The notes beneath the pieces were generated by a model that did no database searches, was not told the origin of the DNA, and worked only from the letters and a program-made list of their open reading frames with translations. This document shows positions 10,206 to 29,876 of a stretch of DNA of 64,000 nt, piece after piece; position 1 is the first letter of the stretch; every line of letters begins with the position of its first letter. Origin of the DNA: Firmicutes bacterium AM31-12AC (GTDB lineage: Bacteria > Bacillota > Clostridia > Lachnospirales > Lachnospiraceae); assembly GCA_003480425.1 (NCBI GenBank), contig QUJA01000013.1, forward strand, positions 1 to 64,000. The letters are read 5' to 3'. A program made the position numbers and the translations under genes.

Positions 10206-11249
10206 TCATGCACACGCTCTCTGATATTCTTTTAATTTTTCTTTTGCTTCTTGATTCAAATATTTCGGCACTTGAATTTCCACTGTGACATACTGATCTC
10301 CATGCACGGATGCATTTTTCATAGAAACAATTCCTTTTCCTCTTAATCGAATCTTGCTTCCTGACTGTGTTCCTTCTTTAATCTTGCACATCACATCGCC
10401 ATACAACGTGTGTACTCTTGCTTCGCCTCCGAATACTGCTGTTGTATATGGAATTTGTATCGTTGTATAAACATCCAAACCTTTTCGTTCATATCCCGGT
10501 TTATTGGCAGCTGTCACTTTCAAGAACAAATCTCCGGCTTCGCCGCCCTGAAATCCCGGCTGTCCTTTTCCTCGAAGCCGTACACTTTTTCCGGTATCAA
10601 TACCGGCCGGAATGTGTACTTTTAACGACTGACTGCTTCCATTTGATGGATTTTGTAATGTAATTATCTTATCACAGCCAAATGCTGCCTCATCAAATCC
10701 TACTGTTACATCTGCGTGAATATCGGAACCTTTTTGTGGTGCATTTTGATAATATTGCCCGCCAAAGCCTTTGCTTCCGCCACTTCCAAAGCCTTTGAAA
10801 CCACCGGTACTTCCGCTTCTAAAACTGCCAAAACCTTTGCCGCTTTCATCACCATGGAAGATATTTCCAAACATATCATCAAAAATGTCTCCCATGTCAC
10901 TGCTGTTGAAATGATATTCGTGATAAGCGCCATTCGCATCTTGATATGCTCCGCTGTAAGAGCCGCCAAAACCAGAACCATAATTTCCTGCATTACCTTG
11001 ATATGCTCCATTTGGTGCACTTCCGTCAAATGCTGCATGACCAAACTGATCATACATTTTTTTCTTTTCTTCGTCACTTAATACATTGTATGCTTCTGTA
11101 ACTTCTTTGAATTTCTGTTCTGCTTCTTTATTTCCCGCATTCGTATCAGGATGATATTTTTTTGCAAGCTTCCTATAAGCTTTCTTGATCTCTGAGGCAC
11201 TTGCACTTCTACTAACCCCTAATACATCATAATAATCCCTCTTTGCCAT
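10206..11249 (-). CDS. DnaJ-class co-chaperone (CbpA-like, no zinc finger)
   Basis: A 347-residue type II Hsp40. The J-domain occupies residues 1-70 with the HPD motif ([10 protein letters not shown]). A long Gly/Phe/Tyr-rich linker follows at ~75-170 ([36 protein letters not shown]). The C-terminal substrate-binding domains start at [18 protein letters not shown]. The CxxCxGxG zinc-finger repeats of true DnaJ are absent. It stimulates DnaK ATPase and presents clients. The start has AGGAGG 8 nt upstream. It lies downstream of hsp20 in the same direction, across a hairpin terminator, so read-through from the CIRCE-controlled promoter may set its level. Confidence 0.9.
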
Positions 11250-11345
11250 TCATATCACCTCCTGATATTTTTTCAAAGCATTGCTTTAACAGCATCTATC
11301 AACTTATTTCAAATCAACAACACGTAAAATTTTTCTCTTATTTAG

Positions 11346-11381: not shown

Positions 11382-11384
11382 ATC

Positions 11385-11843
11385 CTATCCCTCAATGGTT
11401 ATAAAGTGGTTCGCTTCCACTTCTTTCTTCTCCTCTTTCTTCGGGATATCGAGTGTCAAAATACCATTCTCAAATTTTCCATGAATGTCATTCTCTGTAA
11501 CGCCTTCGCCTACATAGAATGTACGGCTTGTGCTTCCTGAATAACGTTCCTGTCTGAGATATTTTCCTTTCTTCTCGTTATCGTCTTTTTCAAGACCTTT
11601 CTCTGCACTGATAGTCAAATAACCATCTTTCAATTCTACCTGAACCTGATCTTTCTTGAATCCTGGTAAATCTACTACCAATTCATATCCATCATCATGT
11701 TCCTTAATATCTGTTTTCATTACATGTGCTGCATGTTTTCCATACAACTTTTTCTCTACATCCGGGAATGAAAAATTCATCCAGTTATCCCAATCGTTCC
11801 AATCATTTAAAAAGCTTTCTCCAAAAATACTAGGTCTTAACAT
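11385..11843 (-). CDS. hsp20: Hsp20/alpha-crystallin small heat shock protein
   Basis: A 152-residue small heat shock protein. A short aromatic N-terminal arm (FLNDWNDWDNWMNF) precedes the alpha-crystallin domain (residues ~42-140) with YELVVDLPGFKKDQVQVEL and the closing GILTLDIPKKEEKK, close to the family's A-x-x-x-n-G-v-L signature. It acts as an ATP-independent holdase. GGAGAG lies 7 nt before the ATG. Expression is set by the promoter and CIRCE element about 125-165 bp upstream. Confidence 0.93.
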   Translation of the reverse strand: MLRPSIFGESFLNDWNDWDNWMNFSFPDVEKKLYGKHAAHVMKTDIKEHDDGYELVVDLPGFKKDQVQVELKDGYLTISAEKGLEKDDNEKKGKYLRQERYSGSTSRTFYVGEGVTENDIHGKFENGILTLDIPKKEEKKEVEANHFITIEG

Positions 11844-12256: not shown

Positions 12257-12278
12257 ATATATTCTATATTCTAAAGGA

Positions 12279-12322
12279 AAAAGCACTGAAAACCGTAAAT
12301 ACACGATTTTCAATGCTTTTCT
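12279..12322 (-). terminator. terminator at the 3' end of the BREX operon
   Basis: AAAAGCACTGAAAACCGT pairs with ACGATTTTCAATGCTTTT (two G-U type pairs), followed on the minus strand by a T-run. It lies 20 bp past the stop of the AAA+ gene. Confidence 0.75.
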
Positions 12323-12342
12323 TGTTATACCCCATACCGACC

Positions 12343-13473
12343 TTATTTCGATATTATAAATTTTTCGGTCAATTTTTCAAAAATAGCGTTTTCCATTTTT
12401 CCTTTCAAAATTCTGATATTATCATAACGCTCCGCATTTTTTATAAACCACTCCTGAATATCAGTATTCTGAATAAACTCTCTCTCATCTTCCTGTAATG
12501 TCTTAAATATAGAAGAATACCAGTTGTTTATTATTATCTGCTTTTGCTCAACATTCAAATCAGCATATTCTATACAACCTCCAATACGAGAAAACATTGC
12601 TGGTCCAAGAGCTTTCTTAATCTCTGCCTCACTTCCAAAATTACACGTTAAAAGAAATACAGCTTGCCCAAGATCAATATCATAATTTGTATCTACATAT
12701 CTTCCTTCATCAAACAGCTCATAAAAGGCGTTGTAAAATGCAGGGTTAACTTTATCAAATTCGTCGATTAAAATTACATTTGACTCTCTACCTACCATAT
12801 CACGTGCAAAACTACTTTTTGAATGCTCTGCTCCAAAAACATAATTAAAAGCTTCTTCTGTCTGCATCATTGAAAACTGAATTCTTAGTAGATTACCACC
12901 TAATGATTTACTAATGCTCTTTGCACTTTCTGTTTTTCCAACACCTGATGGTCCATATAACATAAGCACAACCGGCTTTCCATGTGTTCCTGTTGTCAAT
13001 CTATACATTCCACTTAAAATTTGTTTTTTACACTTATCCTGCCCCAAAACATCATTATCGAGATTTTGATAAATTGTTTTTAATACTGTTCTTGTTAACT
13101 CAACATAGCTACTACTTTTATTTTCTATATCTCCATCAAGCGCTGATTGTATTGATTCAAGAACTCGTCTTGGAGGATTCTGAACATAAAGAACACCTAT
13201 CTGATAATTCAAAGTCACAATATTCATAAAATTAGATAATACATGCGGCATAACAGAACCATAGTCATCTGCTCCGACAATGCAATTATCCACGTATAAA
13301 TCTTTTTGTAAAGCAGCTTCCCCAACACCAGATTCGTTAGGACGTAATCTAGCGTTATAATGCTGTATTAATTCCATAAAAGGTATCGTAATCTCATCCT
13401 CAGGAAGATTATCTGCTAAATATTGTTCAAAATCTCTTTTTGAGCCAGTAAAAACAACAACTTGATTAATCAA
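12343..13473 (-). CDS. Clp-type AAA+ ATPase, BREX-associated
   Basis: About 376 residues with one AAA_2 (ClpA/B second-domain-like) module: Walker A GPSGVGKTESAKS, Walker B VILIDEFDKV, sensor-1 FLLTCNFGS, and an arginine-finger-like MFSRIGGCIEY. The N-terminal ~150 residues match no family I recognise. The likely start is the TTG at 13473, behind GGGGGTGG and overlapping the DUF6414 stop; a longer frame to 13509 lacks a ribosome site. It lacks the ClpP-binding loop region of ClpX/ClpC as far as I can see, so it is more likely a remodeller than part of a protease. It is the last gene of the BREX transcript and coupled to the DUF6414-like gene, so the two probably work as a pair. Function unknown. 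Confidence 0.8.
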   Translation of the reverse strand: MINQVVVFTGSKRDFEQYLADNLPEDEITIPFMELIQHYNARLRPNESGVGEAALQKDLYVDNCIVGADDYGSVMPHVLSNFMNIVTLNYQIGVLYVQNPPRRVLESIQSALDGDIENKSSSYVELTRTVLKTIYQNLDNDVLGQDKCKKQILSGMYRLTTGTHGKPVVLMLYGPSGVGKTESAKSISKSLGGNLLRIQFSMMQTEEAFNYVFGAEHSKSSFARDMVGRESNVILIDEFDKVNPAFYNAFYELFDEGRYVDTNYDIDLGQAVFLLTCNFGSEAEIKKALGPAMFSRIGGCIEYADLNVEQKQIIINNWYSSIFKTLQEDEREFIQNTDIQEWFIKNAERYDNIRILKGKMENAIFEKLTEKFIISK

Positions 13474-14287
13474 CTGCTTCCACCCCCGCAAGTAATACAT
13501 CAAACACATCTAAAAGTTTCTGCGAAGCGGTATTATCTTCCACTTCGTTGCTCTCTTCATATGATGGATTATCTTTTGGAATTATTGATACATCCATCTC
13601 CAATTCCTTACTTACATCTAGCATATCAAGAGAAGTTCTACCTACTTTTATTGCATAAATGCTTAAATTCATTTTGAGCAAATCACTAATTGTATACCCG
13701 TTCTTAAACGAATTGATATTAAATCTCAATATAACCTTGCTTTTCCCCTTTGTTCCTACAAATTCATAGTATCCTTTTGCATTCTTTAAAGCATTTTCCA
13801 GTTTATCAATCGCAATATTAAATTCTCCAGCTGGAATAGATGAACCTGTTTTTAGCATGGACAAATATGGTGATACCATAACCATATATGAGAGAGAATC
13901 TTTTTCTGCTGAAATTATGTAACCATCAAATCTCTTTATAGCACCTCTGGCTGTTTTTGACGCAGACTTTTTTGCAGAATCATCATCTACAATTTGTAAA
14001 AAATCTGTAAGAATGGTATTCTTCATAATATTTTTTACCATTTTATTGCGATTCAAAGCTAACCCTGCCGAAATTTCTCCATTAGCAGATGCTTCCCATC
14101 CTATAAGTGCTTTAAAAATTCCACCAATCCCAGCTTTAGCAGTAGCACCTACTTCTTGTTTCTCATTTGCCTCACTTGATTTAAGCAATTCAGTTGTTGT
14201 TTCAAGGCTTCCACCTGCAACGATCTGAACATAGTCTGTAACCGAATCCTCATCAAAATAAACAATTTTACAAATCTTATTTGCCAT
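13466..14287 (-). CDS. DUF6414-like protein, partner of the AAA+ ATPase
   Basis: A 273-residue soluble protein that begins KICKIVYFDEDSVTDYVQIV and continues with a Gly/Ala-rich segment (AKAGIGGIFKALIGWEASAN) that could contact membrane. A central YIISAEKDSLSYMVMVSPYL and a C-terminal acidic tail follow. The N-terminus matches what I remember of DUF6414; the assignment is from memory and moderate. No catalytic motif is visible. The gene starts 1 nt after the brxL stop (GGGGGT ribosome site) and overlaps the AAA+ gene, so it is part of the BREX transcript. It may act as sensor or adaptor for the ATPase. Confidence 0.65.
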   Translation of the reverse strand: MANKICKIVYFDEDSVTDYVQIVAGGSLETTTELLKSSEANEKQEVGATAKAGIGGIFKALIGWEASANGEISAGLALNRNKMVKNIMKNTILTDFLQIVDDDSAKKSASKTARGAIKRFDGYIISAEKDSLSYMVMVSPYLSMLKTGSSIPAGEFNIAIDKLENALKNAKGYYEFVGTKGKSKVILRFNINSFKNGYTISDLLKMNLSIYAIKVGRTSLDMLDVSKELEMDVSIIPKDNPSYEESNEVEDNTASQKLLDVFDVLLAGVEAVD

Positions 14288-14288
14288 A

Positions 14289-16406
14289 TTACTCTACCCC
14301 CAACGCCTTAAACACTGCATCTTCCGCACTCTGATAAGGAATCAACTGAAATGCACTCATCAGATCAGCCGGAACACTTGCGAAATCAACAAATGAGGTA
14401 CTCGGAATCAGCACCTTCTTTGCGCCGCTATCCAGACACACCTGAAGTGTATTGGCAAGTTCATCCACCTTTATCATTGTGCCACTAATTGTTATATCTC
14501 CCAACACTGCCAAGTTGCTGACAACAGGCTTTCCAAGGGCAATCGAACAAAGTGCAATCAATGTTGGAAGTGCCAATTTGTCTGTCATACCGATACCCTG
14601 CAAATCCTGATAATTGATGATGTAATCCTTGGTCGATGTGCTGATAGAGCCACTGATCCGATTGCCGTTGGCTTTCAGATAATTAAATGCCGTGTTCACC
14701 GCTTCCTTGCATTTAGAATCACTGCCTAAGCCAGTTCGTTCAATTTTGCCATTGCCTGGAAGCATCTGACTTTCCAAACGGAATACACCAATCATGCCAC
14801 TTTTTCCTCTGGATACGGTATAAACCTGTCCCGGATTACACATCCCATCCGGTATCAGCTTACCGCCACCCTGTTCTGGTACGGAAACATAATGTTCTGA
14901 CATATCTTCTAGATCTATATAAGAGAAGTTTACATCATAAAATTCCATACCGCCCAGTTTCTTCAATTGCTCCTTGACACGGCGACGCATTTCCAATGCA
15001 ATCTGAATAATTTCTTCCAGTTCTTCTTTGGTAAACTCACCATTTGGGTACATCAACTTCAGATAACCGTCTATCATACGACGAACCGCAATTGTATCAC
15101 GCTGATTCAGATTTCTCCCCAAGCGGAAGTAGTGATCAAGTGCATCTCCATACTGCTCCTTGCGAAGCTCTCGGATGAACTCTGCCAAATAGTCACTGAT
15201 AAAACCGTAATCATCGGTAAAATGCTCCGGTCTGAACTTCGGTATCTCCCATCCTGGAAGATAACAATGCATACGATCAAGAAATGCTGTATCTGTTCCC
15301 ATTTCCTGCGGGAAAGGTGCAAACAGACTGGACGTTTTCAACAGCACGTCCACACTCTGATTGATATTTCCCACAAATACCATGGACGCAGTAGCAGCTT
15401 TTTCTTCTTTGCCACGGGCAAAAGAGCCGGATGCCATGTAATCCTTCATAATCTGAATGCCATCTTTATCTTTAAACTTGATACCAGCCACTTCATCAAA
15501 GGCTACACAGTCCCATAAGCCGACCAGTCCGACCGTTTTGCGTCCCATATTGTAAAACAAGTTTGCAACCGTCGTCTGTCCACCGGAAATTAAAATACTG
15601 TTCGGTGAAATCTCTTTGTAAAGATGAGATTTACCGGTACTTCTCGGTCCCAGCTCACAAAGATTAAAGTTGTTTTCAACTAATGGAATCATGCGGGTCA
15701 GGAGCAACCATTTCTCACGGTATGTAAATTCATCTGGCTCCATGCCGATAGAACGAAGAAGAATATCCAGCCATTCATCTTTCGTAAAAGCTTTTCGCCC
15801 CTGCTTTAGTTCATCAATATCAATGTGCGGCATCTGGATTGGTGTCAGCTTACGGATACTGATTGGAGAAATATCTTTCTGCTTTTTCTGTTTGGAACGA
15901 AGCGGATTTCCATCAATGTCCTCAATACCAAAATTATTGTCGCCTTCAACCTCATAATCCAGCTGAACAATACACCAAATACCGCCACAGAGCAGGCGAT
16001 CAAATTTTTCCGGATATTCGTCGGCAATTGGTACATTACCAACGCCCAAATTAGAAAACTCTGCAAAAAAGCAATCCTTTTTCATATCCAGTCGAACAGT
16101 CACCATATCAATGATCGTGTAACTACCTTTTTTACGCAGCTGAGACAGAATCTTCTGTGATTCATCCGGGCGCACAAAGTTGTCAGCAAGAATACGCTTC
16201 ACATTCTGTACGCCTTTCTCTATAACCGTCTCATCATCTGAACTGCAATACTGTCCCAACAAGAACTCAAGAACATACACTGGGACATTCGCCCCTTCTT
16301 TAATTTTCTTTGTCAGGTCTTTCCGAACAATCTTACCGTCAAAGTTCTGACGGAGCTTGTTCTTTATTTCTTCACGGGTACTTTCACCCTCTGCAAATTG
16401 CTCCAT
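14289..16406 (-). CDS. brxL: BrxL, BREX AAA+/Lon-like effector
   Basis: About 705 residues. The AAA+ core holds Walker A LGPRSTGKSHLYKEI and Walker B CVAFDEVAG. The C-terminus is a Lon-like fold (ALPTLIALCSIALGKPVVSN, then AVLGDITISGTMIKVDELAN). At the places of the Lon catalytic Ser and Lys I read Thr and Ala, in line with BrxL being a DNA-acting MCM-like ring rather than a protease. The start MEQFAEG at 16406 is chosen because AGGAGG sits 8 nt upstream; the ATG at 16427 overlaps the pglZ stop (TAATG) but lacks its own site. In type 1 BREX, BrxL is needed for phage exclusion, not for host methylation. Confidence 0.93.
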   Translation of the reverse strand: MEQFAEGESTREEIKNKLRQNFDGKIVRKDLTKKIKEGANVPVYVLEFLLGQYCSSDDETVIEKGVQNVKRILADNFVRPDESQKILSQLRKKGSYTIIDMVTVRLDMKKDCFFAEFSNLGVGNVPIADEYPEKFDRLLCGGIWCIVQLDYEVEGDNNFGIEDIDGNPLRSKQKKQKDISPISIRKLTPIQMPHIDIDELKQGRKAFTKDEWLDILLRSIGMEPDEFTYREKWLLLTRMIPLVENNFNLCELGPRSTGKSHLYKEISPNSILISGGQTTVANLFYNMGRKTVGLVGLWDCVAFDEVAGIKFKDKDGIQIMKDYMASGSFARGKEEKAATASMVFVGNINQSVDVLLKTSSLFAPFPQEMGTDTAFLDRMHCYLPGWEIPKFRPEHFTDDYGFISDYLAEFIRELRKEQYGDALDHYFRLGRNLNQRDTIAVRRMIDGYLKLMYPNGEFTKEELEEIIQIALEMRRRVKEQLKKLGGMEFYDVNFSYIDLEDMSEHYVSVPEQGGGKLIPDGMCNPGQVYTVSRGKSGMIGVFRLESQMLPGNGKIERTGLGSDSKCKEAVNTAFNYLKANGNRISGSISTSTKDYIINYQDLQGIGMTDKLALPTLIALCSIALGKPVVSNLAVLGDITISGTMIKVDELANTLQVCLDSGAKKVLIPSTSFVDFASVPADLMSAFQLIPYQSAEDAVFKALGVE

Positions 16407-16426
16407 CTTTCTCTCCTCCTGCGGCA

Positions 16427-19114
16427 TTAACTAAAAAAATCAAACTCGTCCACCGCAAAGGCAATGTCAATCTGAAATGGCTCCCGCTGTGGCATCTGTA
16501 ATCCCTGTTCATCTGCAATTACCAGATAATAAGTAGCTGTATTGCTGTATTTCAGAGATTTCAAATTAAACTGACAACGGAAAGTTCTTTCTGCACCATT
16601 ATCGCTGGTCTTATCTGCAATAATCTTCTGAATATCACTAATCTGTTTGCCGTCCTCATCTGTAAAATAAACTTGATAGGTTGCTGCTTCACGATTTGTA
16701 CTGACCGCATCTTTTTGATAGAAGTTCAACGAAAAAATCATATTGCTGATTTTACGGTTTGCAGACAGTAAATTGACCGTTACCGGCTTAGTATCATATT
16801 TCTGCTTATTTCGCTTATATTCCATAGAATCGTTGCGGAGATAATGATACTCAATCACTGGAACAACCATTTCCTGCAAGCTGATACCACCATGCACAAA
16901 ATTCATTCCGCCACCATTCATTTTGATACGAATACTTTCTCTCGGTGCAAATCCATCGAATTCCGTATTTCCGCCCAAGAATTTTACAGGCATCAAGTAA
17001 TCTGGTTGCACACCCTTCTGCATAATTGCATATCTTCTGCCATACTCTGCACATCGCCTGATACTTTCTTTTTTTGTAATGTCAGAGTTTGTTACATCCA
17101 CGTCAAAAAATCCTCTTTTATCTACTTTGTCCTCTTCCTTCAAAGGACTGTATGTATAAAGAAATCCATGGTCTGCCGTAATTAGAATATTCGTTCCGCC
17201 AAATTCATTTACAATGATACGCACGAGGTTCTTCAATTCTGAAATCGCCTTGTCACACGCAGCAAAAACAGCAGTATCCGAAGTGTGGCTGGCTTCATCT
17301 ATGGTATCGTGGTAAATATAGACCACATCCATACCTTTTACTAAAGCACTTCTTTCCGCTCGTTTCATAGCAATGATGTCATTGTACTTTAAAGCCACGC
17401 TTGCCGAATCTTCTGTTTTCAGAACCTTATCCCTATAAGTACTTGCCGTAGACTGTCCATCTGCCAAAACCGTCAAAATATCGTTCCGAACCTCTACTGT
17501 CAGTTCTTTGTGCGGCAACAAAGCTGCCATACCAAACTTTGTAGTAGAAGGGAAGATACTCTGCATACTACTGATAGAAACCTTACTTTGCGTTTCTCGC
17601 TGAAGCTGATCTGCCATCGTAGCTGCCACTTCATAACGCATGGCATCTGAGATAATTACAAATACTTTCGTATCCGAGGTTTGGATACGGGAACGGTAAA
17701 AATCCTCCTGTTGTGGTACTTCCAGAACTTTACCGTAAGTTGCCAGTTCATCCGCACATACATCCGACCAGTTGTTGCCCAACTCACCTAAGAACCAATG
17801 ATTATAGAGTCCTTCCACTTTATCGACAACGTGCTTAAATAGATCATCCAGCAGAATATTGGAAGTCTCCAAACTCTTTTGAAAACTAAGATGGAACAAA
17901 CGGTAATAAGTGTCCATCTGATAGTAACTCTCTGTATATTCTTTCCAGATACTTTTCGCTTCTGCGGTATGGAATCCGGCAGAATGTTCCTTAAAGAAAC
18001 TTTGCATATTCGCCACTTGTAAGATACCGTCATAAAAATTCTCAAATGGCTCATACCATACACAAGTTCTCCGTTTTTCAACGGTATTCGTAATGGTATC
18101 CACATCAATGATATGGTCACTGATCTCTGTCATTAGCTTTGTCAGAATTACTTCGTTAATACACGGAAAGCACTCTGTTCCTACCAAATCTTCTACTGTC
18201 AGCTTTTCAAAACGCTGATACAGACGAGCTTCATCCTCAACATAACGTGCCACATCATATAATTGCGGAATGTCCCGGCCCAGGCCGCCCTCTCTTCCAG
18301 CTTCGCTGGAATTCACCTTGTCACTATGAAGCCATTCAGAAATAAAATCATAGCAATATGCCTGATGGGATATGGAAATAAAACTGTCCAGTCCCGCAAG
18401 ATATTCCTGCCGCATGGTACGGGTCGCTGCAGTTAAAAGCAGATGAATTGCCAACTGCCCAAGATCTGGTTCTTCCTCTACAAATCCACTTCCCTGACGA
18501 ACCATCGCCCAAAAAGCTGCGTCTGCATGATATTTTACAAAATCCTGATAAACCGTATTATTATTCAAATCCAGTCCCGCCCGGAACACACTACGGAGAA
18601 TCATATTAGGCTGTGCATCTTTCAATCCACAGATTGCCGCCATGACAGCCATGTGTAACTGTGCCGGTGTTTCCGGAACTTTATTCTGTGTGCTGACTTT
18701 CAATCGGCGGTCTTTCGCATTGAAATAAGCACGATAATTTTTAACCTGTTTCCTCATTGCCGGATTTGATATAAGTCCCATCTCATCCATCCAGATAGAA
18801 ATCAGATCTGCCCGGAACTCCTCACTGTAAAGCTCCACATCCAGAAGCCAGTTATCATCCGGGCGGTTATATGCTAATGGACTGTAAACCAGATAGTTTG
18901 TGGTCAGATCGTCCACCGAAAGCAGTTTCTTCACAGAAAACGCATTATTGCCAGTCAGAGCAATCACCTTTGCATTGTCCAGAACCACTTCGTCCAGCTT
19001 ATCCTCAAATTCCTTATCTTCGTCATACCAGAAGATGATACGACGCTGATAAAACTCCGGCAGAGGTGCAACAAACCTGCGGTTTAAGTCCTGTATTACT
19101 TTGTCTGTATCCAT
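16427..19114 (-). CDS. pglZ: PglZ, BREX-1 phosphatase-fold protein
   Basis: An 895-residue type-A PglZ. The alkaline-phosphatase superfamily core shows metal-site elements VIISDAMRYEVAA (~residue 475), YIYHDTIDEASH (~residue 600) and ILITADHGFLYT (~residue 645). The N-terminal part is the PglZ-specific helical region. PglZ is a core BREX protein required for methylation and defence. It starts 6 nt after the AlbA_2 ATPase gene and ends overlapping the brxL frame. Confidence 0.93.
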   Translation of the reverse strand: MDTDKVIQDLNRRFVAPLPEFYQRRIIFWYDEDKEFEDKLDEVVLDNAKVIALTGNNAFSVKKLLSVDDLTTNYLVYSPLAYNRPDDNWLLDVELYSEEFRADLISIWMDEMGLISNPAMRKQVKNYRAYFNAKDRRLKVSTQNKVPETPAQLHMAVMAAICGLKDAQPNMILRSVFRAGLDLNNNTVYQDFVKYHADAAFWAMVRQGSGFVEEEPDLGQLAIHLLLTAATRTMRQEYLAGLDSFISISHQAYCYDFISEWLHSDKVNSSEAGREGGLGRDIPQLYDVARYVEDEARLYQRFEKLTVEDLVGTECFPCINEVILTKLMTEISDHIIDVDTITNTVEKRRTCVWYEPFENFYDGILQVANMQSFFKEHSAGFHTAEAKSIWKEYTESYYQMDTYYRLFHLSFQKSLETSNILLDDLFKHVVDKVEGLYNHWFLGELGNNWSDVCADELATYGKVLEVPQQEDFYRSRIQTSDTKVFVIISDAMRYEVAATMADQLQRETQSKVSISSMQSIFPSTTKFGMAALLPHKELTVEVRNDILTVLADGQSTASTYRDKVLKTEDSASVALKYNDIIAMKRAERSALVKGMDVVYIYHDTIDEASHTSDTAVFAACDKAISELKNLVRIIVNEFGGTNILITADHGFLYTYSPLKEEDKVDKRGFFDVDVTNSDITKKESIRRCAEYGRRYAIMQKGVQPDYLMPVKFLGGNTEFDGFAPRESIRIKMNGGGMNFVHGGISLQEMVVPVIEYHYLRNDSMEYKRNKQKYDTKPVTVNLLSANRKISNMIFSLNFYQKDAVSTNREAATYQVYFTDEDGKQISDIQKIIADKTSDNGAERTFRCQFNLKSLKYSNTATYYLVIADEQGLQMPQREPFQIDIAFAVDEFDFFS

Positions 19115-19120
19115 GCCGCA

Positions 19121-20575
19121 TTATCTCCCTTCCGTATTTTTTACATAAATTGTACTTCTTGAAGCACCTTCTTTTCTCAACCAGCCGTTTTCAACCATTT
19201 TAACCAATATTTCTCTGGTTCTACGCTGTTTGATGCCAAGAAGTTTCATCGCCTGTGCCGTTGTAATGCCGGCATTTTCCGATACATACTTATAAATTTG
19301 CTGTTCCTGTTCATTTGCCGGCACTTTATCGGCGGTTTCCCGGCGGTTTAACGGCGGTTTAACGGCGGTATCGAGGTCATTGAGGTCAGCAGTGCCGTCA
19401 ACCTGACCTCGATAAATATTGATACGCAAATCAACTTCGCCGCCAATGAACTCCGGCTCCCGCAGTCCGGCAGCTTTTACTTTATCAATAATTCTCGGAA
19501 TACCGCTTCCCCAATGCTCGATCAGGTTCATATAAGCAAACGCATGGGCGAGGGCTTCATTTCTGATTTTGGAATAGCCTTCTTTCATACGCTCCATAGT
19601 TTGTCCCATCGGCAGCTTTCCTGGAGAAGTAATTTCCAATCGGTTGTCATATACGGCAACCTGTATCGTACCATGATCCAGATAACTACGATGTACCATA
19701 GCATTGATAATCAACTCACGAATGGCATCCGGTGGAATCTCATAAATATCCTGCCGATAAATTCCCACAATGGTCGCACCCAGATGAATATTTCTCAGAA
19801 CAAACTGAAATGCTTCATCTATCTGCTCCCAAAGCGGACCGGTATATTCTCTACGGTCAACAAATACTGCTTTCGTTGTACCTTTGAACACACCACATTG
19901 CGTTGCAACATGAAGTCCACCGTTGCCTGTCAAAATAGCAAAAGCATTGGACGGATAATCCTTTCCATCACGTTCAATCAAAACACCCCAGGAACGCAGC
20001 TGCTGTCTTCCCACATCTTTAATCGCTGCTTTCTGTTCCTCTGTACGGGCATTTTTAACAGCCTGCTCTTTCATAGCTTTACAAAGGACATCAATATCTT
20101 TATCTGTAACATTTAACCCAGTACATAAAGCCTGATCGTAGTAACGATTACTGCCCTCAAACAACAATTCTTTTATCATATACTCGTCGGCAAGGCGGGT
20201 AGTTCCGGCAACCCGGACATATACACCGCCATCTCTGCCAAGAGTTTTGATATAATAGGGGCGCTGTCTACCCTCAGAAACCTCTACCACAATGACAGTC
20301 TTACCATCAACCGTCTGTAACGTAATATCCGGGATAATTGCCGGTTCACAGCTGTCTGATACAGCATTTGCAATGGCATCCATTTTCTTGAACACATCTT
20401 CTTTGTCAAAGCCGACAACCTCTCTGGTTTTATCGGTAATTCCGAAAATGATTTTTCCTCCGGTTCCATTTGCAAAGGCAACCACAGACTTCATATATTT
20501 GATACTTTTATCCGGCAGGTTCTCTTTGAACTCCACATTCTTCGATTCTCCTGTAAGAATTTCTTCTATGGTCAT
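19121..20575 (-). CDS. AlbA_2 (Schlafen-type) GHKL-like ATP-binding protein
   Basis: About 484 residues in three parts. Residues ~1-130 are an AlbA_2/Schlafen-like domain (ESKNVEFKENLPDKSIKYMK; FANGTGGKIIFGI). Residues ~270-390 are an HATPase_c_4 (GHKL-like) region with the N-box ELIINAMVHRSYLDHG and EHWGSGIPRI. After a linker there is a C-terminal winged helix (ITTAQAMKLLGIKQRRTREI). Proteins of this make-up occur often inside BREX and other defence loci and are usually considered accessory regulators or nucleic-acid binders. The linker is encoded by an 11-bp tandem repeat (19331-19374). GAGGTG precedes the start. Confidence 0.88.
   Translation of the reverse strand: MTIEEILTGESKNVEFKENLPDKSIKYMKSVVAFANGTGGKIIFGITDKTREVVGFDKEDVFKKMDAIANAVSDSCEPAIIPDITLQTVDGKTVIVVEVSEGRQRPYYIKTLGRDGGVYVRVAGTTRLADEYMIKELLFEGSNRYYDQALCTGLNVTDKDIDVLCKAMKEQAVKNARTEEQKAAIKDVGRQQLRSWGVLIERDGKDYPSNAFAILTGNGGLHVATQCGVFKGTTKAVFVDRREYTGPLWEQIDEAFQFVLRNIHLGATIVGIYRQDIYEIPPDAIRELIINAMVHRSYLDHGTIQVAVYDNRLEITSPGKLPMGQTMERMKEGYSKIRNEALAHAFAYMNLIEHWGSGIPRIIDKVKAAGLREPEFIGGEVDLRINIYRGQVDGTADLNDLDTAVKPPLNRRETADKVPANEQEQQIYKYVSENAGITTAQAMKLLGIKQRRTREILVKMVENGWLRKEGASRSTIYVKNTEGR
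19331..19374. repeat. 11-bp tandem repeat in the AlbA_2 ATPase linker
   Basis: Four adjacent 11-bp units read GGCGGTTTCCC, GGCGGTTTAAC, GGCGGTTTAAC and GGCGGTATCGA. Because 11 is not a multiple of 3, gain or loss of one unit would shift the frame before the C-terminal winged helix. A 10-bp inverted repeat (ATCGAGGTCA / TGACCTCGAT) follows directly. Confidence 0.8.
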
Positions 20576-20618
20576 CATAACACCTCGCTCTCTTTGACAG
20601 TCCCAACCACCATATTTT

Positions 20619-21521
20619 TTACTTGATTGATGAAGATATTGCGCTCAATGCTTTGTTTAAGGCATCCTCATCCGCTTGCCGTTTTCTTAAGCTTTCCCAC
20701 ATACCAAGTATCTGATAAATACATTCTTTCACAATAGGAAAATACTTTCGACATTCCTCTTCACTTAGCTCATGAATACCTTTGCTCAGAATCCCATAAA
20801 TAGTTGTATTTTTTATGAGTACCTCTGGTAGATACCCCTCTAACATCTTAATTCGTTCAGCTACCCTTGCCTGTTCAAATTTCTCATCATTAACCCTATC
20901 TCCCGCATTTACTTTTGCCTGATAAATAAGCCTTTCAAGAATTCGTCTTAAATAAACATATGAACCCGCACCAACACCACTTGCAAACAGTCCTATAGCT
21001 GTTCCAAGCTCTTTACGGTCTTCCTTAGAAATCACATGCTTATAAGCATCTAATTCTGGAAATGTCATGTCTGCAACAGATGGATACTGCCCAATTTTTG
21101 TCATTGAATTATCTGTTGTCAGAACAATATAATCCAAATGATGCTTCTCGTCCATTGAACAAATATATTCCAATTTCATTAATCTCGTTGTATCAGCTAT
21201 TTGCCAATTTATCCATTTCCATTCTTCAGCAAAACTCTTTTCTTGTTTGGCTTTGGTTCTAAATATCATATTTTGAAGTGACTCTATTTCCTCACCAAGA
21301 GATGCACACCTAATCTCTTCATCCCCATCTAGACTCGTTTCAAAATAATACACAATAGGCTTCATGTAAAAAACACGCTCTTGCTTGCACTCTTTGCAAT
21401 AAGCACTAATTTTAACATTTCCTTTAAGCAACTCAATTAAGTCAGCAATATTATCTTCACAAATTTCTTTAGAATCATATAATCCCGCAGTTTGTAAAAA
21501 CGTAGTAAATATATTGTCCAT
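20619..21521 (-). CDS. 300-aa hypothetical BREX-associated protein
   Basis: Family not recognised. Residues ~36-45 carry a CxxC pair (AYCKECKQER), and further on YICSMDEKHH places a Cys and two His that could complete a zinc site. A small Gly/Ala-rich hydrophobic helix (TAIGLFASGVGAGSYVYLRR) lies at ~175-195, and the C-terminal third is helical and charged. AAGGAGGG precedes the ATG. It sits between pglX and the AlbA_2 ATPase, in the same transcript, and is not a BREX core gene. Role in sensing or in a separate defence step is open. Confidence 0.75.
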   Translation of the reverse strand: MDNIFTTFLQTAGLYDSKEICEDNIADLIELLKGNVKISAYCKECKQERVFYMKPIVYYFETSLDGDEEIRCASLGEEIESLQNMIFRTKAKQEKSFAEEWKWINWQIADTTRLMKLEYICSMDEKHHLDYIVLTTDNSMTKIGQYPSVADMTFPELDAYKHVISKEDRKELGTAIGLFASGVGAGSYVYLRRILERLIYQAKVNAGDRVNDEKFEQARVAERIKMLEGYLPEVLIKNTTIYGILSKGIHELSEEECRKYFPIVKECIYQILGMWESLRKRQADEDALNKALSAISSSIK

Positions 21522-21536: not shown

Positions 21537-24500
21537 TTATTTTATTTTAGCCAGAACATCCTGGAAAATTGCATAATTCTTCTTCACGCCATCGTCCAGA
21601 TCAATAGAAATCATCTGGTCAGCAAGGTGATGAATCTTTTCCTCGTAGACTCTGATTTCAGTATCCTGTGCCTGTAAGGTAGTCCGCTTTTTGTTCAGCT
21701 TCACACGCTCACCAGTGGAAGCGTTGGCAATGCGCTGTTCCAGATCGGCAATGGCAGTGCGATAACGAGCCTGCTGCTCATGCACATAATCGGTACGAAT
21801 GCGAGCAATGGTGTCCGGCTGATAGCGGTGCATATAAATCAGAGCCTTAAAGCCGTTCTTTTTTCCACTGTCAAACAGCCAGTAGATCGGGCGTTTCTGA
21901 TAAATCTTGCAATGGTCAGAGTAGAAATCACTCAGGAAGTAATTCCGAATCACGTCCTTCGGCTGACCTTTACCGCCCAGTGCATCAGCAATGAATTTCA
22001 GGTTTTCGTCTAAGGTATCTGTACCATAAACTGCTTCCACAAATTCTACAAATCGTCCAACAATATCATCCGTAAAATATTCATCGTCACAGATAGGGAT
22101 AATATTATCTTCATCCGGCATAAAATGCGTTTGCTTATAAAATTCAATCACATCTGGTTTACCATCACATAACCACGCTGCATCCTCATAAGTATTATAA
22201 TTCCATTTTCCACCTGCATAAACAAGTCCCTCTCTATAAATAGAGTAACGACCAAACATACAGCCAACCGCATAGGAAATGAAAGAACGAATATCTCTGC
22301 CGAGATCAGCCTTGCGGACAGTAACATCCTTATTCTCAACCTCCGGTGTTAGCTCATCCTGCAAACCATAAATATCAATGAAAATACGGTTCAATTCTTC
22401 CTCGTTGGCTTTCAGCTGATTGAAACGCTCGTCACATTCCGCCTGCCACTGGTCAAAGGCTTCGGCAATGGTAGGAACTTTGCGGAGTAACGGGTGATGT
22501 CGGAAATCCCATGAAGTTTCAAAAGAATCCCAGTCAGCTTTAGATAATTCCATGCAGTTTTTTACCTTATCAGTAATAATACTATTATCTATACAATTTT
22601 TATATGGCAACCTACTAACTGTTCCCGGATTACAATCAAGTGTAGGTGAAAGAATCTTTAAAATTGTAGATACAATCGGAGAATTCAAATAACCTAATAT
22701 CTGAAGTAATTCCTCGTGAGAAACTTGTTTCTGTGCAAAGCAAGTCGGTCCCTTAATGTCAAAAATAGATTCGTTTGAGGTAAATCTAAACATTGGTGTT
22801 CCAGATGCAATAGATGACCATGTTGCACCTTCAACGAAATAGAACTCGCTATTCCAACATTCACTATTTTTCTTTTCAATTTCTCCCAACTCTAATCTAT
22901 GTTTTTTGAAAGCCTTTATATCAAAACCGTTATTTTCCCAATCAACAACAAGGTCTAAATTTCCGTACCATTTACGTTGACTCCCACCTTTATTGTAGGA
23001 AAACCACTTGGTTCCATTGTTAAAATGATCCGTATTTATGTTTGATACTTCATGCCAATACCTCAAAAACAAATCATTATTTCCAGTCTGCATTCCTGCA
23101 CGGCAAATAAAACGATCTTTTATGGTACTATGTGAAAATAGTGGAAGCATTGTTCTTGGTAACCAGTATGATAACGGTGCGCCTTCAATCTCATAAGTTT
23201 CTGCTAAACTTGCGTTATAAATATTTTTATTTTCTAACAAAACACATTCTTTAGCATCATTATCTTCTATATTGTCTACTTTACAGTAAGCAGCTTGATA
23301 TTCATCGAGAATACCTTTACGCATTACGAATGTGCTGGTTTTTACAACCTCACCACTTAATTCTTCAAATACTCTTGAACCAAGATGTACCATATTCAAA
23401 TAATACATAGAAGAATATATTGTATTTCTTAATTGACCACTTCTCGTCAGACTCATCCAACCAAGTTGTGCAATCATTCCTAAAAGTCCACTTATTTTAC
23501 AGAATTCTCGACAGCGTAAAATAAATACCGTATATAAATCATTACGACCATCATCGTAATATTTTTTAACATAAGAAAACAATTTCTTACTCATTCCACT
23601 ACTTGCCATATATGGCGGATTTGTCACAACCACATCATATTTTTGTGCCAGTGCTTCTGCCACCTGTACCAACGGCAGTAATTCTCTCAATGCCGTTTCA
23701 CGGGACATGTTTATATCTTCCGTAATCTCTGCGAAACGGGCATACAAAGCTGACCAATCCTGCGGTGTTACAGTCAGAATAGAACCATATTCCTTTGCAT
23801 CAAGCAGTTCTCTGATGATGGTATCCATACCCGCTGTGAGCTTCATATCGCCATTACAGAAATAGTCCACCGCAAATTTATCTATATGGTTGCTCTCCAC
23901 AATTGCATATACATGGGGCTGAATACCACGGCTAAAGAAGCGACGGTCATACTGACGGGCTTTCATCATTACCGCAAAGTAAGCCAGCTGTGCTGCACGG
24001 TCATCAATATCCAGACCGTAAAGATTGTTCTCCACAATGCTCGCCACAGCTTCACGGGTGGTATATCCGTAGGATTCATAAATCTTCATCAGCACATCAA
24101 ACATATACGCAAGAATATGACCGGAACCGGAACATGGATCAATAACTTTCAGCTGATCCGGTGTCAGTGCGGCGTATTCTTTGCGAATCTCTGCCAGCTG
24201 TGCCTGCACTTCCGGCTCCTGCTCGGCTTCTTCCAGATAGTAATGCCATTTGGTATCTTCCGGGTCACGGTTTCCGGCAGCATAGGCAGACTGTTCTTCC
24301 TCGGTAGGAAGAAGCTGCTCTTTCACTTCCGGATGTCCCTCCAGCCATAAACGACCAAGACTGTTCTCTACCATGTAGCGAACAATCCAGTCTGGTGTGA
24401 AAAGCTGAGTTGCTGCAGGGATGTTTTCTTTTGTGATTTTCACATTCTTTTTCAGTGCTGCAAAAACATCGTCCTTTTTCTCACTGTTATAATACTGATA

Positions 24501-25118
24501 CAACCAACCGATAATCTGGACAGCATCCTTCCAATCATCCTCCGGTATCAGCTCGATCATCTGCTGAATGACACTGCCTTCACGGAGCAGATTGTCTGGC
24601 AGAAGAAGCTCAGTGTAATCTGCAATCTTCTGGAACATTCCCGGCAGAATCTTATTCAGAGCATTACACTGCACGATCAGCAAATATTTATATAGTTCTT
24701 CGGTCTTTTCGGCTTCTTTCAGCGCATAGACCTTTTCCATATCCAATCCATCCAAATCCAGATGAATGGCTTCGGTTATAATCTGCGGCTTAAAGTTGTT
24801 TTCCTCGTCCGTGAATACACGCACATGGGAAGGAATGTAGCCGTTGACTTCCATAAATCGTAGAGCAGAGAAGCGGTTGAACCAAGTGTAGGCAACCTCC
24901 TCCATGACCTGTTTATATCCTTTATCGTTAATCTCGGCAATCAAAGCCTGACGCTGTTTCTTTTCATCGGCAGTAAGGACTTTACCGCCAACGCTGTCCG
25001 CATTAGCATCCTCAATGTTGTCCTCTGTGATACCGTATTCCACACCTTTTAGTGAAACACGGGCGATCAGCTCTGTTCTTGCCCAGATAGCAAATTTTTT
25101 AATCGCATTCTTATCCAT
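21537..25118 (-). CDS. pglX: PglX, BREX-1 adenine-specific DNA methyltransferase
   Basis: About 1193 residues, full family length. SAM-binding motif I is VIDPCSGSGHILAYMFD (~residue 330); catalytic motif IV is VVTNPPYMASSG (~residue 515), the NPPY form of N6-adenine methyltransferases. A long C-terminal target-recognition half follows. It marks host DNA at a non-palindromic site and also takes part in phage exclusion. I chose ATG 25118 because GGAG lies 7 nt before it, giving an 8-nt overlap with the upstream gene. No homopolymer tract suggesting phase variation was seen. Confidence 0.95.
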   Translation of the reverse strand: MDKNAIKKFAIWARTELIARVSLKGVEYGITEDNIEDANADSVGGKVLTADEKKQRQALIAEINDKGYKQVMEEVAYTWFNRFSALRFMEVNGYIPSHVRVFTDEENNFKPQIITEAIHLDLDGLDMEKVYALKEAEKTEELYKYLLIVQCNALNKILPGMFQKIADYTELLLPDNLLREGSVIQQMIELIPEDDWKDAVQIIGWLYQYYNSEKKDDVFAALKKNVKITKENIPAATQLFTPDWIVRYMVENSLGRLWLEGHPEVKEQLLPTEEEQSAYAAGNRDPEDTKWHYYLEEAEQEPEVQAQLAEIRKEYAALTPDQLKVIDPCSGSGHILAYMFDVLMKIYESYGYTTREAVASIVENNLYGLDIDDRAAQLAYFAVMMKARQYDRRFFSRGIQPHVYAIVESNHIDKFAVDYFCNGDMKLTAGMDTIIRELLDAKEYGSILTVTPQDWSALYARFAEITEDINMSRETALRELLPLVQVAEALAQKYDVVVTNPPYMASSGMSKKLFSYVKKYYDDGRNDLYTVFILRCREFCKISGLLGMIAQLGWMSLTRSGQLRNTIYSSMYYLNMVHLGSRVFEELSGEVVKTSTFVMRKGILDEYQAAYCKVDNIEDNDAKECVLLENKNIYNASLAETYEIEGAPLSYWLPRTMLPLFSHSTIKDRFICRAGMQTGNNDLFLRYWHEVSNINTDHFNNGTKWFSYNKGGSQRKWYGNLDLVVDWENNGFDIKAFKKHRLELGEIEKKNSECWNSEFYFVEGATWSSIASGTPMFRFTSNESIFDIKGPTCFAQKQVSHEELLQILGYLNSPIVSTILKILSPTLDCNPGTVSRLPYKNCIDNSIITDKVKNCMELSKADWDSFETSWDFRHHPLLRKVPTIAEAFDQWQAECDERFNQLKANEEELNRIFIDIYGLQDELTPEVENKDVTVRKADLGRDIRSFISYAVGCMFGRYSIYREGLVYAGGKWNYNTYEDAAWLCDGKPDVIEFYKQTHFMPDEDNIIPICDDEYFTDDIVGRFVEFVEAVYGTDTLDENLKFIADALGGKGQPKDVIRNYFLSDFYSDHCKIYQKRPIYWLFDSGKKNGFKALIYMHRYQPDTIARIRTDYVHEQQARYRTAIADLEQRIANASTGERVKLNKKRTTLQAQDTEIRVYEEKIHHLADQMISIDLDDGVKKNYAIFQDVLAKIK

Positions 25119-25731
25119 AATTTTCTCCATCTTCTATTCGAACAGACAATTTCTTAATACCTTTATCAATATTCTCCATTGATTTTCTCAAATTATCAAC
25201 ACTATTCTTAAACTCATCCACTTCTGAAATATAGTTTAAAAATCCACTGTACTCTGAAAAATCGATTGCAATTTTTTCAATATAAGATTTGTTTTTCCCA
25301 TACTTACAATATTCGTAACCAATCCTTACTGTTTTTTCTTCAAAATCGTTTATGATATTAAAAACATTTGTATCAAATGAAATAACCCATTTCTGATTTG
25401 GAAAAATCACAATACTCGTCGATTCTTTCTTTTTTAATCGTTCCTGCGTTTTCGTTTGCAACTGTTTGGTAAAAGTTTCATTAAACGTCAAACTTTTAAC
25501 TTCCAATGGAACAGTGCCAACATTTCTCAAAACAATGCACGCCAACGTTGAGCGAACAAGTTCAAACGATATTTGCATATAAGGGCGATTTTTCTCACTT
25601 CGTTCCTTGAGCAAAAAGAAAATTGTAACCCATGAAGCAATTAGTGCTAATATTGAAATTGCACTATCCCAAGGAAAAGCTGAATTTTGCTGTTCAACTG
25701 CAATAACCAGTCTTTCAAGTAATTCTTCCAT
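25111..25731 (-). CDS. membrane-anchored hypothetical protein between brxC and pglX
   Basis: A 206-residue protein of unrecognised family. One membrane helix (~residues 23-41, SAISILALIASWVTIFFLLK) is followed by charged residues (ERSEKNRP), then a beta-rich soluble domain (~50-160: ISFELVRSTLACIVLRNVGT; STSIVIFPNQKWVISFDT) and a C-terminal amphipathic helix (FKNSVDNLRKSMENIDKGIK). The soluble part is predicted to be cytoplasmic because the helix is followed by positive residues. Its end overlaps the pglX start, so pglX translation is coupled to it. It is not part of the known BREX core. Confidence 0.78.
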   Translation of the reverse strand: MEELLERLVIAVEQQNSAFPWDSAISILALIASWVTIFFLLKERSEKNRPYMQISFELVRSTLACIVLRNVGTVPLEVKSLTFNETFTKQLQTKTQERLKKKESTSIVIFPNQKWVISFDTNVFNIINDFEEKTVRIGYEYCKYGKNKSYIEKIAIDFSEYSGFLNYISEVDEFKNSVDNLRKSMENIDKGIKKLSVRIEDGENYG

Positions 25732-25742: not shown

Positions 25743-28700
25743 TTAGTTCAGCTTGATTTCATCGCAATTTTTCAACAACTGTTTCAGCTGAAAACGAATC
25801 TTCTCTACATAATCATCAATGTCCGCATCCGTCTGTAAAGTCTTTGCCTGGAATACAACCTGTCGGTTATAGGCACGGACAACCTTTTTCTTTGCCGGAG
25901 CAGCTTCTTTCCCCGGCTGTGTTGGCTGTACTGGCGGCTTCGGTGCAGGCGGAGCCAGAACAGACTCGATATTGCTGACGGTATCATCCTTATACTGGCA
26001 CATCGGCAGGAACATAGCATCCAAAAGAGCAAGGCTCTTTAATTCTGCGATTTTCTCCTTACACTGACTGAAATATTTGTCTGATTTTTCAATCAGATGG
26101 GATGCTTTGGAATCGCCGTTTGCGGCAGTGTGGGTTGCTTCCATACACTGACGGACCGTTTCCAGAACCTCGGCACGTTTTTCTTCCAGCATCTTGTCAT
26201 GGGCGGTACGAACCGTATCCATCAACAGATTCAGTTCACGAATCCGGTTATAGTTGAACTTGCTTCCGATCTGAACCATCGTAATCAAACGAATGGTATT
26301 CAGTGCCTTATGTGCTTCCTCATTTTCTGCAATTCGGTCAAGATCGTCGTGCAGAGATTTTTCAAACTGCACTGCCTGGTCGAATACTGTTACCTGGGTC
26401 TTGAAAAAGTTTTCAATGCCATTGCTCATGGCTTCTTTGTTATCAAAGAGAGCATCCTCTTTGTTCAGCACACGCTCAATTAGGGCAATGTTGTCTTTCT
26501 TCTGGGAAAGTACATCATCCATCAGCTGAATAGCAGTCTGTACCAACGCACGATCCGGGTATTTATGTCCGTCATAACGAGCATCCAGAGAAGCATAGTA
26601 ATCACGCTGTTCACTGAATTTCTCAGTCACAAAGCGAATCAGACCATCTTCATCATCCGGTACATCCATAACATCGAAATAATCCCGGAGCATTGATTTC
26701 ACATCACGCATCATCGTTGCGGAAATGGTTTTACGCTTACTGATAGAGGTCTTACCGATCTCACTCTTTTTGCGGAGCATATCCGGTAGTTTCGGGTCAT
26801 CCGGCTGAATGGTATTGCCTGCGTACTTGATGGTTACTTTCTGGGAATAAATCAGCTGTGCCGCAACCGCAGCAATGTCGATTTCTTTCCAGCCATACGG
26901 AATCGCACTGTATTTGCTTTGCACATCTGCCATAGAAGTCGGCAGCTTTTTCGCATCCTGCATTTCCAGATATTCTTCCATAGCAGAAGCAGCATCACGG
27001 TTCGGTTCCATGCCCGGAAGTGCTGTTACCGCACCTGTCAGAATCGCAATAATATCTGCGTCACTGCCTGCATTATCTGTAATCAGGTCGAGCTTGCTAT
27101 ATACATGAGCAACCAGATATTCAAGAGACTGGTCAATCTTGTTCTTGGCATTTCCGGCTTTGATTTCCAAATGCTCACCATCTACATAGAACTGCGCCCC
27201 TTCAATGGCATTTTGCAATTCGGTCATAGCACTCAACTCATATTTTCCGGCTTCGTCCTGCTGATCGCTGATGATTTTCTGCACACTCTTAGGAAGCTGG
27301 CTTACATTTCTCTGTTTTACATACTTACGAATCTTCATGGCAGATTCCAGAGATTCATAATAAGGCGTATCAGCCAGAACCACGATTGCTTCATTACCTT
27401 TAGACTCTGCCATCAGACGGTAATCTGTTTTTTCAATGGCATCAGTAGCAACGGTCAGGAAACGCAGACGCATACCACCTGTTGCCACTCCAACTGTAAT
27501 GCCGTCCACCATCTGATCGAAAGCAAAGTCATATTTTCCATAACGGAACTTCTTGGTTGTGAAAATATCACCGTAAACCATCTGAGCAATACGCTCTACG
27601 ATAGAAGCGGTATCCACATTGGTATCTCTTATTTCACGCTGAATATCCTGTTCTTCGTCAGTCAGGAAGTTATAAGTGTCACCGGTTCTACCGATATAGT
27701 TCTGGCTCATCAGACGGTCAAGGCATCCTCGGACAGCTTCACGCATGATAATCTTATCCACACGAATATCGTCTGCCATAAGAATTACGATATTGTCCAA
27801 ATTGGAAGGAATATCATCAATATATCGAATCAAGTACAAAAGTTTCAGTACATCTACATCCTGCTGTTCAATGCCGTCCCCGTTGTCAGCAGCTTTCTGG
27901 CAACGCTCAATTACACGACGAATCGAACCATCCAGGAAAGTATGTACAGTATCATAAAAACGGAAGAACGGAACAAGTGCATATTCATCCTTCTCCTGAA
28001 TTTTCTGTGCAGCTTCCTGGAAACCGGACAGCATGGAACGCTCACCACCAGACAGGTGCTTACCGGAATTTCCATGTTTCCGGATTTCAGCAAATACCTT
28101 CTGCATGATGATAAACTGATACGGCACGAACGGGAAGTTCTCGGTAAATTCCCTTGGGCCGGAATGACCTTTAATATCCAGAATGGAACCGCTAAAGCTG
28201 AACAGGTTACGAAGAACAGAATCATTCTGCTCATAAACAGCTTCCAGATTTTTAGCTGCTTCTGGTTTCTTTTTCAGAATACGTTTCTGGATGACTTCAT
28301 CCACAGAGGAAGATGATAAACTCAGTCTTGTCTTAAAACGAGCCTGAATACGGGAGAACTCATCGGCACGAACTTTGATGATTTCATCAATGGCTTCCTG
28401 TCCGGTGCAGATCACCCAAATCTTTCCTTCACACTCACTTCCGATTTTTTCTGTCAAAGACTGGAGGTTCAAAAGCATATCTGTGTCTGTGCCGACATAC
28501 TGACCAACTTCGTCGATCATAAACAGCAGACGGAAGTTCGCTGGTTTAGTATCCACATAGGCTTTCATATCTTCCACAAGCTGAGCAATAGATATTTCTG
28601 TTGCAGTTTTATCATTGAACCACGCCTTGGCATCGTCCTCACTCATATCTAAAACTTCCATTAGTGTCGGGATGATGAACTTGCCATTGAAAGCAAAGGC

Positions 28701-29304: not shown

Positions 29305-29865
29305 TTAATCTATGACATTGAATGCCCGATAATAATCATTTGGTGTCAAACGATTGAACAGTTTTACATGACGACCATCAAACTCACCCGGATACATAAC
29401 CAAAATCGGAACATCAGAAAAATACGGTTGCAAGGCTTCCAGTAACGTATGGATTCTCATAAATGGGAACACCTCGCCCACACCTGTCAGCATCAGCACA
29501 TCACCCGGTTCGTGTGGCTCATACTGGATTTTATCAATGAACTCTCCATTGCCGATTGCGGAATTCAGCTGCTCCAGAAGATAAGCACTCCCGTCAGCTT
29601 CTTCCATATCTGGAATTGCATCTGTGATGTCCATATCATCGCAGATAGAGAGAAATGTTTTATATAAATTACAAACAATCAAATGGCAATCTAAGGACTG
29701 ATCAGTTTCCAGCTGATTCACAAAATGGCGGACAACCATTTCATTCTCCGGCTCATAGCAGAAGATTCTGATATTCACCTCATTGCTGAGTCCCTTGCCT
29801 TCCAGAAACTCTGATTCCTGGATCAATGCCCGAACTTTGTCCAGGCGCTCTTTTATTTCATTCAT
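29305..29865 (-). CDS. brxB: BrxB (DUF1788)
   Basis: A 186-residue DUF1788 protein, with VFPFMRIHTLLEALQPYFSD and the typical C-terminal VLMYPGEFDGRHVKLFNRL. I chose ATG 29865 (MNEIKERL) because AGGAGG precedes it; the longer frame to 29889 overlaps brxA with no ribosome site. It is a small BREX core protein of unclear biochemistry, required in tested systems. Confidence 0.93.
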   Translation of the reverse strand: MNEIKERLDKVRALIQESEFLEGKGLSNEVNIRIFCYEPENEMVVRHFVNQLETDQSLDCHLIVCNLYKTFLSICDDMDITDAIPDMEEADGSAYLLEQLNSAIGNGEFIDKIQYEPHEPGDVLMLTGVGEVFPFMRIHTLLEALQPYFSDVPILVMYPGEFDGRHVKLFNRLTPNDYYRAFNVID

Positions 29866-29876
29866 CGGGTTACCTC

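Follow-up and report, generated by a model that had tools for sequence, protein, structure and literature searches.

Dodola as a probable exchangeable cassette at the end of a BREX-1 operon

The stretch of DNA analyzed here, hereafter the window (64,000 nucleotides of Firmicutes bacterium AM31-12AC, family Lachnospiraceae; contig QUJA01000013.1, positions 1 to 64,000), contains an operon of the type 1 bacteriophage exclusion system (BREX-1) that ends with two further genes, dolA and dolB. These genes form a complete Dodola defense system that quite probably represents an exchangeable cassette located between the stop codon of brxL and a terminator-like hairpin; the cassette is probably co-transcribed with the BREX genes while being functionally separate from them.

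Identity and layout of the gene pair

Both genes are minus-strand open reading frames (ORFs), which extend over 13466..14287 and 12343..13509. The product of the upstream gene, dolA (13466..14287, 273 amino acids (aa)), matches DUF6414 in Pfam (PF19952, E=2.1e-43, residues 4-268) and DolA in PADLOC (PDLC03837, E=3.7e-79, residues 2-269). The product of the downstream gene, dolB (12343..13473), combines an N-terminal alpha/beta domain with one AAA+ domain of the Clp-D2 type and is recognized by AAA domains in Pfam and by the DolB model of PADLOC, which represents a ClpB-like ATPase (PDLC03838, E=1.9e-129, residues 15-384). Because curated models match nearly the full length of both proteins and 1294 and 1379 homologs are present in the protein database, the pair does not reflect a chance arrangement of reading frames; the two genes are adjacent, in the dolA-dolB order characteristic of Dodola, and their assignment as a complete Dodola system is firm. 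The first ATG of the dolB frame, at 13509, yields a protein of 388 aa; the start that is conserved among the relatives corresponds to a TTG at 13473 (376 aa), which, judging from this conservation, is likely to be the start in the window. With this start, dolA and dolB overlap by 8 nucleotides (nt), as they do in 23 of the 36 loci in which the start could be placed by script.

An earlier note on this DNA had described the pair as a DUF6414-like protein and a Clp-type AAA+ ATPase encoded by overlapping genes that close the operon after brxL. The protein assignments are borne out by the Pfam matches, and the overlap is real but shorter than the ORF ends had implied. The position holds as well: brxL, dolA and dolB lie on the same strand, dolA starts 1 nt past the brxL stop, and dolB is directly followed by a terminator-like hairpin. 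The note had left the pair unnamed; it is a genuine defense pair but one that already has a name and has been tested against phages, so that what is new is its setting within a BREX operon.

The hairpin (12278..12321, minus strand), which has a U-rich tail, has a predicted free energy of -24.9 kcal/mol on the operon strand (z -8.6 compared to shuffled sequences); it is A+T-rich and was not flagged by the consensus terminator scan, which flagged no terminator-like site at the brxL-dolA junction either. The region contains no more consensus promoters than shuffled sequences do. From the sequence, co-transcription of dolAB with BREX appears likely.

An exchangeable slot after brxL

The boundaries of the cassette become apparent from comparison with closely related operons. 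Four genomes, denoted G959, G943, G841 and G1009, encode BrxL proteins that are 98-99% identical to that of the window (the G1009 protein is divided between two frames). Over the final 439 nt of brxL, including the stop codon, G959 and G943 are 96-97% identical to the window, after which the identity drops to background; past the cassette, the flank at 12044-12323 returns at 80-87% identity in both genomes, and the hairpin element is present as well. Because the identity is lost at the brxL stop and regained at the hairpin, the coordinates of dolAB coincide with those of an exchangeable cassette, with the stop codon as its left edge and the hairpin as its right edge. Between these edges, the window carries dolAB (1.95 kb), G959 carries an OLD-type ATPase (so classified by eye) with a UvrD-like helicase (2.9 kb), and G943 carries a TrlF-family ATPase. 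The slot of G841 contains a gene for a 385-aa protein with no assigned family, of which G1009 has a shortened copy; these two genomes do not share the right flank of the window cassette. The aligned BREX blocks of the window and G959 or G943 are 85-96% identical, with unaligned portions near 19117-19398 and within pglX. As a side observation, G943 carries, on separate contigs, a Dodola system after an MmeI-type gene (L092, contig C32) and a BREX operon that is sister to the one in the window and has TrlF in its slot (L134, contig C34).

A broader survey covered the bacterial family of genome G001, where the BrxL search had hits in 47 of 397 genomes, roughly a dozen of them distant matches (28-35% identity). 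We read the 30 loci with BrxL of at least 59% identity, 27 of which include at least 1.4 kb after brxL. An ORF of at least 150 aa starting within 70 nt of the brxL stop is present in 16 of these 27 loci, and the encoded proteins, when grouped by blastp (E 1e-5), fall into 13 groups without mutual similarity; most of their family labels were assigned by eye, and for three proteins a similarity comparison with annotated plasmid genes served as a check. DolA adjoins BrxL in only one of the 30 loci (L114, from the same genome as L003); the contig of G001 that ends in brxL, which lies outside this set, shows the same adjacency. A core component of BREX would be expected in the majority of the group's BREX-1 operons, and dolAB does not show this distribution, in agreement with the earlier suggestion that the pair is an extra defense module. 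For one BREX lineage, the cassette nature of the slot contents is well supported; for the family as a whole, the evidence is suggestive. Among the matches listed by a search of open-licence main texts, we found no pertinent description of a slot after brxL.

A second variable stretch is located between pglX and pglZ, where the window (19121-21521) encodes a Schlafen-type protein and an orphan protein of 300 aa, and G1009 has two other genes (L137, 11511-13621). It is plausible, and slightly more probable than not, that in this bacterial family the BREX-1 operons serve as a chassis that offers one standard cargo slot after brxL and another between pglX and pglZ; complete, unrelated defense modules would be swapped by recombination between the end of brxL and the shared terminator flank, and Dodola would be a tenant specialized in such tail slots, whatever the type of the modification-based defense operon. 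As for the cassette, the last BREX or restriction-modification (R-M) gene would presumably lend it a promoter, and selection might favor the stacking of a second, differently triggered defense onto the same transcript.

The proteins belong to a known yet unexplained system, and their setting amounts to a natural experiment, in which related BREX operons differ by one sharp-edged cassette; such a cassette allows one to test whether BREX cargo works with BREX, guards BREX, or merely borrows its promoter. It also suggests a simple rule for finding defense modules, namely, to inspect whichever gene follows brxL or the last R-M gene.

Dodola loci in other genomes and their neighbors

We analyzed 59 loci, which comprise the window, 28 loci from genome contigs, 24 places found in genome searches with the family models, and 6 plasmid loci from 17 plasmid records. 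The whole-genome searches produced matches in 7 of 391, 11 of 398 and 16 of 397 genomes; repeats of the 28 genome-contig loci, along with L052, L053 and L067 (fragments or frames interrupted by stops), were dropped. The two genes occur together on one strand in 55 of the 59 loci; in the exceptions, both genes are broken (L026), the contig ends (L027), a remnant of 29 residues is left (L028), or there is a distant DolB-like protein without a detected DolA (L098). The dolB frame is shortened or split in L019 and L074.

An upstream gene was called in 54 of the 55 loci, and the nearest one was identified as an R-M or BREX gene in 18 of these: BrxL in 5, an AlwI-type endonuclease in 3 (the assignment in L005 and L006 was inferred from pooled counts, that in L079 was checked singly), an MmeI-type IIG enzyme in 3, type I subunits in 2, a type III methyltransferase in 1, and other type II parts in 4 (endonucleases in L017 and L025, Vsr in L010, and a specificity subunit in L076). 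Without the window and its near-copy, L001, the count is 16 of 52. GmrSD-like (Orf5/HEC-06) genes beside L002 and L087 were excluded from the R-M count on both sides. The upstream genes of another three loci (L002, L004 and L020) match models of defense or candidate-defense genes; housekeeping contexts, which the earlier note had named as a check on its proposal, are not where the neighbors point. In the downstream control, 18 of the 19 same-strand genes within 100 nt were tested, and an R-M match (E<=1e-10) was obtained in L018 only; other downstream genes match defense candidates, for example, SduA in L005. When motifs were counted alike on both sides, 15 of 53 loci were positive upstream compared to 2 of 53 downstream (Fisher p=0.001), a result that serves only as a guide given the short motifs and related loci. 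Two other counts were set aside, namely, 20 of 53 upstream, because L001, a BREX locus, had no counted upstream gene of 100 aa, and 16 of 52 versus 1 of 52, because the downstream genes had been checked only in part.

On the tree of DolA, the R-M labels are scattered, with 3 changes for the 3 AlwI-type rows, 3 for the 5 BREX rows and 2 for the 3 MmeI-type rows. Because the clustering of the BREX and MmeI rows exceeds that in most shuffles, some inheritance is likely. In 36 of the 54 loci, the gene immediately upstream was not recognized as R-M or BREX; some R-M genes may have been missed, given that 7 of the 36 genes were scanned singly (L002, L004, L009, L012, L020, L077 and L090) and the rest were covered by pooled scans, by annotation or by motif. 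Proximity to R-M operons is thus common without being general. The earlier note had proposed that the pair may back up BREX or police its loss; because of these 36 loci, and because the published two-gene Dodola is protective, an obligate partnership with BREX is unlikely.

The same observations bear on the possibility that the pair guards BREX or R-M and responds to the blocking of restriction by a phage inhibitor, in the manner of PARIS, which is triggered by Ocr (PMC12839542). Dodola is repeatedly found immediately behind R-M and BREX genes of many kinds; in L018 (4817-9024), it is embedded in a type III operon with the layout mod-dolAB-res and gaps of 15 and -4 nt (res is cut by the contig end); and the same BREX slot also hosts the OLD-type module. 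However, such a neighbor was not identified immediately upstream in two thirds of the loci, and, in one study, protection by cloned Dodola extended to all streptococcal phages tested (PMC12322248). We consider a guard function to be improbable.

Several other loci illustrate the range of contexts. The type I R-M neighbors of L011 (9995-11933) and L028 (near 10001) begin alike, with an intact Dodola in the former and a remnant in the latter. In L073 (6476-8849), on a conjugative plasmid of Enterococcus faecium, a TIR-domain gene ends 12 nt ahead of dolA. Phage-borne Dodola was found in at least 3 loci in viral contigs, a lower bound based on two peptide patterns, and in one phage record.

Features of DolA and DolB and a possible mechanism

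DolB retains the Walker A and Walker B motifs, sensor 1 and the arginine-finger-type residues of the Clp D2 domain. In Clp unfoldases, the aromatic pore loop 1 carries the motif known as GYVG; in the profile alignment, DolB has no loop of this type but a gap opposite the ppgyv of ClpC. The DolB profile also has no counterpart of ClpC 664-690, the segment after sensor 1, which we take to be the site of the ClpP-contact loop. A distant DolB-like ATPase encoded in L098 (6326-7510) has a pore-loop-like GYVN motif; the profile detected no DolA in this locus.

DolA contains a Gly/Ala-rich stretch of small residues at about positions 45-80, which the earlier note had correctly pointed out in the companion protein; residues 37-80 are predicted to be disordered, with a predicted local distance difference test (pLDDT) score below 50, and an acidic disordered linker spans residues 232-254. 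The C-terminus, LDVFDVLLAGVE, is strongly conserved. The idea that it is a docking motif or tail degron for DolB found no support: residues 258-270 are modeled as a confident strand of DolA's own fold (mean pLDDT of 90 for the block 261-270). The sole match of the DolA sequence profile in the PDB is weak (E=0.026), and a Foldseek search of the DolA model against the PDB and viral models revealed no relative below 0.001; DolA can be described as OB-fold-like (oligonucleotide/oligosaccharide-binding) only weakly.

From these features, we tentatively infer a sensor/effector mechanism for the pair, which is possible but less likely than not. Because DolB lacks both the aromatic pore loop and the ClpP-contact segment, the Clp-like ring that it might form would spend ATP on holding or switching its partner, DolA, and not on threading proteins toward degradation. 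DolA, OB-fold-like with its disordered Gly/Ala-rich loop, could be a nucleic acid sensor or an effector that is released upon infection. If so, the mechanism of Dodola would be narrowed to an ATPase ring without a threading loop or a protease contact.

Alternatively, DolA could be a toxin that inserts into membranes through the Gly/Ala-rich stretch and is restrained by DolB. The hydrophobicity of this segment, as judged by eye, its small residues and its predicted disorder are compatible with such a role, as is the growth delay caused by chromosomal Dodola in S. thermophilus (PMC12322248). Nevertheless, DolA homologs differ in the length and composition of this segment, and no helix is predicted at residues 41-75, so that a membrane toxin seems an unlikely identity for DolA.

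The BREX operon and its flanks

The genes of the BREX operon are all located on the minus strand. Upstream of the cassette, brxL (14289..16427; BrxL_N, BrxL_ATPase and Lon_C domains) is preceded by pglZ of BREX-1 type A (16427..19114), the gene for a protein with Schlafen AlbA_2 and HATPase_c_4 domains, the second add-on of the operon (19121..20578), the gene for the 300-aa orphan protein, which had no match in family searches (20619..21521), and pglX, the BREX-1 DNA methyltransferase gene (21537..25130); pglZ and pglX were identified by family-model matches. The next genes are presumably brxC (25743..29291), a name that we assign from its place and sequence, brxB (29305..29889), which we take to be such from its sequence, and, by the same token, the brxA region (29877..30481). 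The latter consists of two pieces in the window (30227..30481 and 29877..30200) compared to a single 201-aa frame in G959 and G943; this split could be either a real frameshift or an assembly error, and, if real, bears on whether the BREX system of the window works.

That the pair is instead a seventh BREX gene, needed for BREX defense or its control, might be suggested by the position of dolA directly after brxL in the window and in L001, L003, L007 and L013, at a spacing of -8 to 5 nt, on the same strand and without a flagged terminator at the junction. Against this stand the single adjacency among the 30 BrxL loci (besides G001), the other genes that close relatives hold at this position, the presence of BrxL in only 4 of the 28 genome-contig loci, and the activity of the published Dodola as two genes (PMC11514479, PMC12322248); hence we regard such a role as very unlikely.

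An HSP20 gene (11385..11843) and a gene for a DnaJ-type protein (10206..11249) lie downstream of the cassette, and an HSP20-like gene, with a match of 65% to that of the window, also follows Dodola in L001. It is most improbable that these genes (10206-11843) and the pair make up a proteostasis module, with DolB as a stress ATPase and DolA as its client, because, despite their proximity, they are more than 400 nt past the hairpin, and the flank in common with G959 and G943 extends only over about 12044-12323. Moreover, among the families assigned to the two genes after Dodola across the whole sample, HSP20 occurs in 2 of 103 (these two being probably the window and L001), and DolB is devoid of the aromatic pore loop of unfoldases.

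Beside the hairpin, the window retains a remnant of a helix-turn-helix regulator gene (12044-12250), which is open (189 aa) in L139 (3180-3749). In G959, MobC-like and relaxase-like genes precede the BREX operon (L132, 907-2477), and a tyrosine-integrase-like gene follows the cassette (L139, 4642-5964), all recognized by eye; the BREX island of this genome may be a mobilizable element.

Comparison with known systems

Dodola was reportedly first tested against phage SPP1 in B. subtilis by Millman et al. in 2022. Subsequent studies state that it protects against SPP1 in this host and give its mechanism as unknown (PMC11514479, PMC12322248); we found no description of the mechanism among the open-licence papers listed by our searches. 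In the assays of PMC11514479, a group of systems that includes Dodola had minimal impact. In this 2024 study, DolA is called Clp-like, and the matches given for DolB are only weak ones, to proteins that bind DNA or RNA; PADLOC assigns the two names the other way around, and we read the labels in the structure paragraph of that study as swapped. The pair in the window shares with the Dodola models of PADLOC the domains, the dolA-dolB order and near-full-length matches. In contrast to the S. thermophilus Dodola, which is described as not directly beside other phage-resistance systems (PMC11514479), the copy in the window lies 1 nt after brxL in a BREX operon. Also, R-M genes have been reported to prefer colocalization with Dodola genes outside defense islands (PMC10924106).

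Schlafen-type and other auxiliary or backup effectors embedded in BREX operons have been described recently (PMC12839542, Nucleic Acids Research 2026). The window likewise carries extra defense modules on a BREX operon, and the protein encoded at 19121-20578 resembles the fusion of Schlafen with a minimal histidine kinase from that study. Dodola, DUF6414 and Clp are not mentioned in its main text, and, unlike the window, the parts of it that were consulted present no base-precise exchange slot after brxL. Further parallels to the cassette are the slot modules of G959 and G943, of which the former, with its OLD-type ATPase and UvrD-like helicase, looks Gabija-like by eye rather than by a family model: these modules occupy the identical place, from the brxL stop to the hairpin, and consist of proteins unrelated to Dodola.
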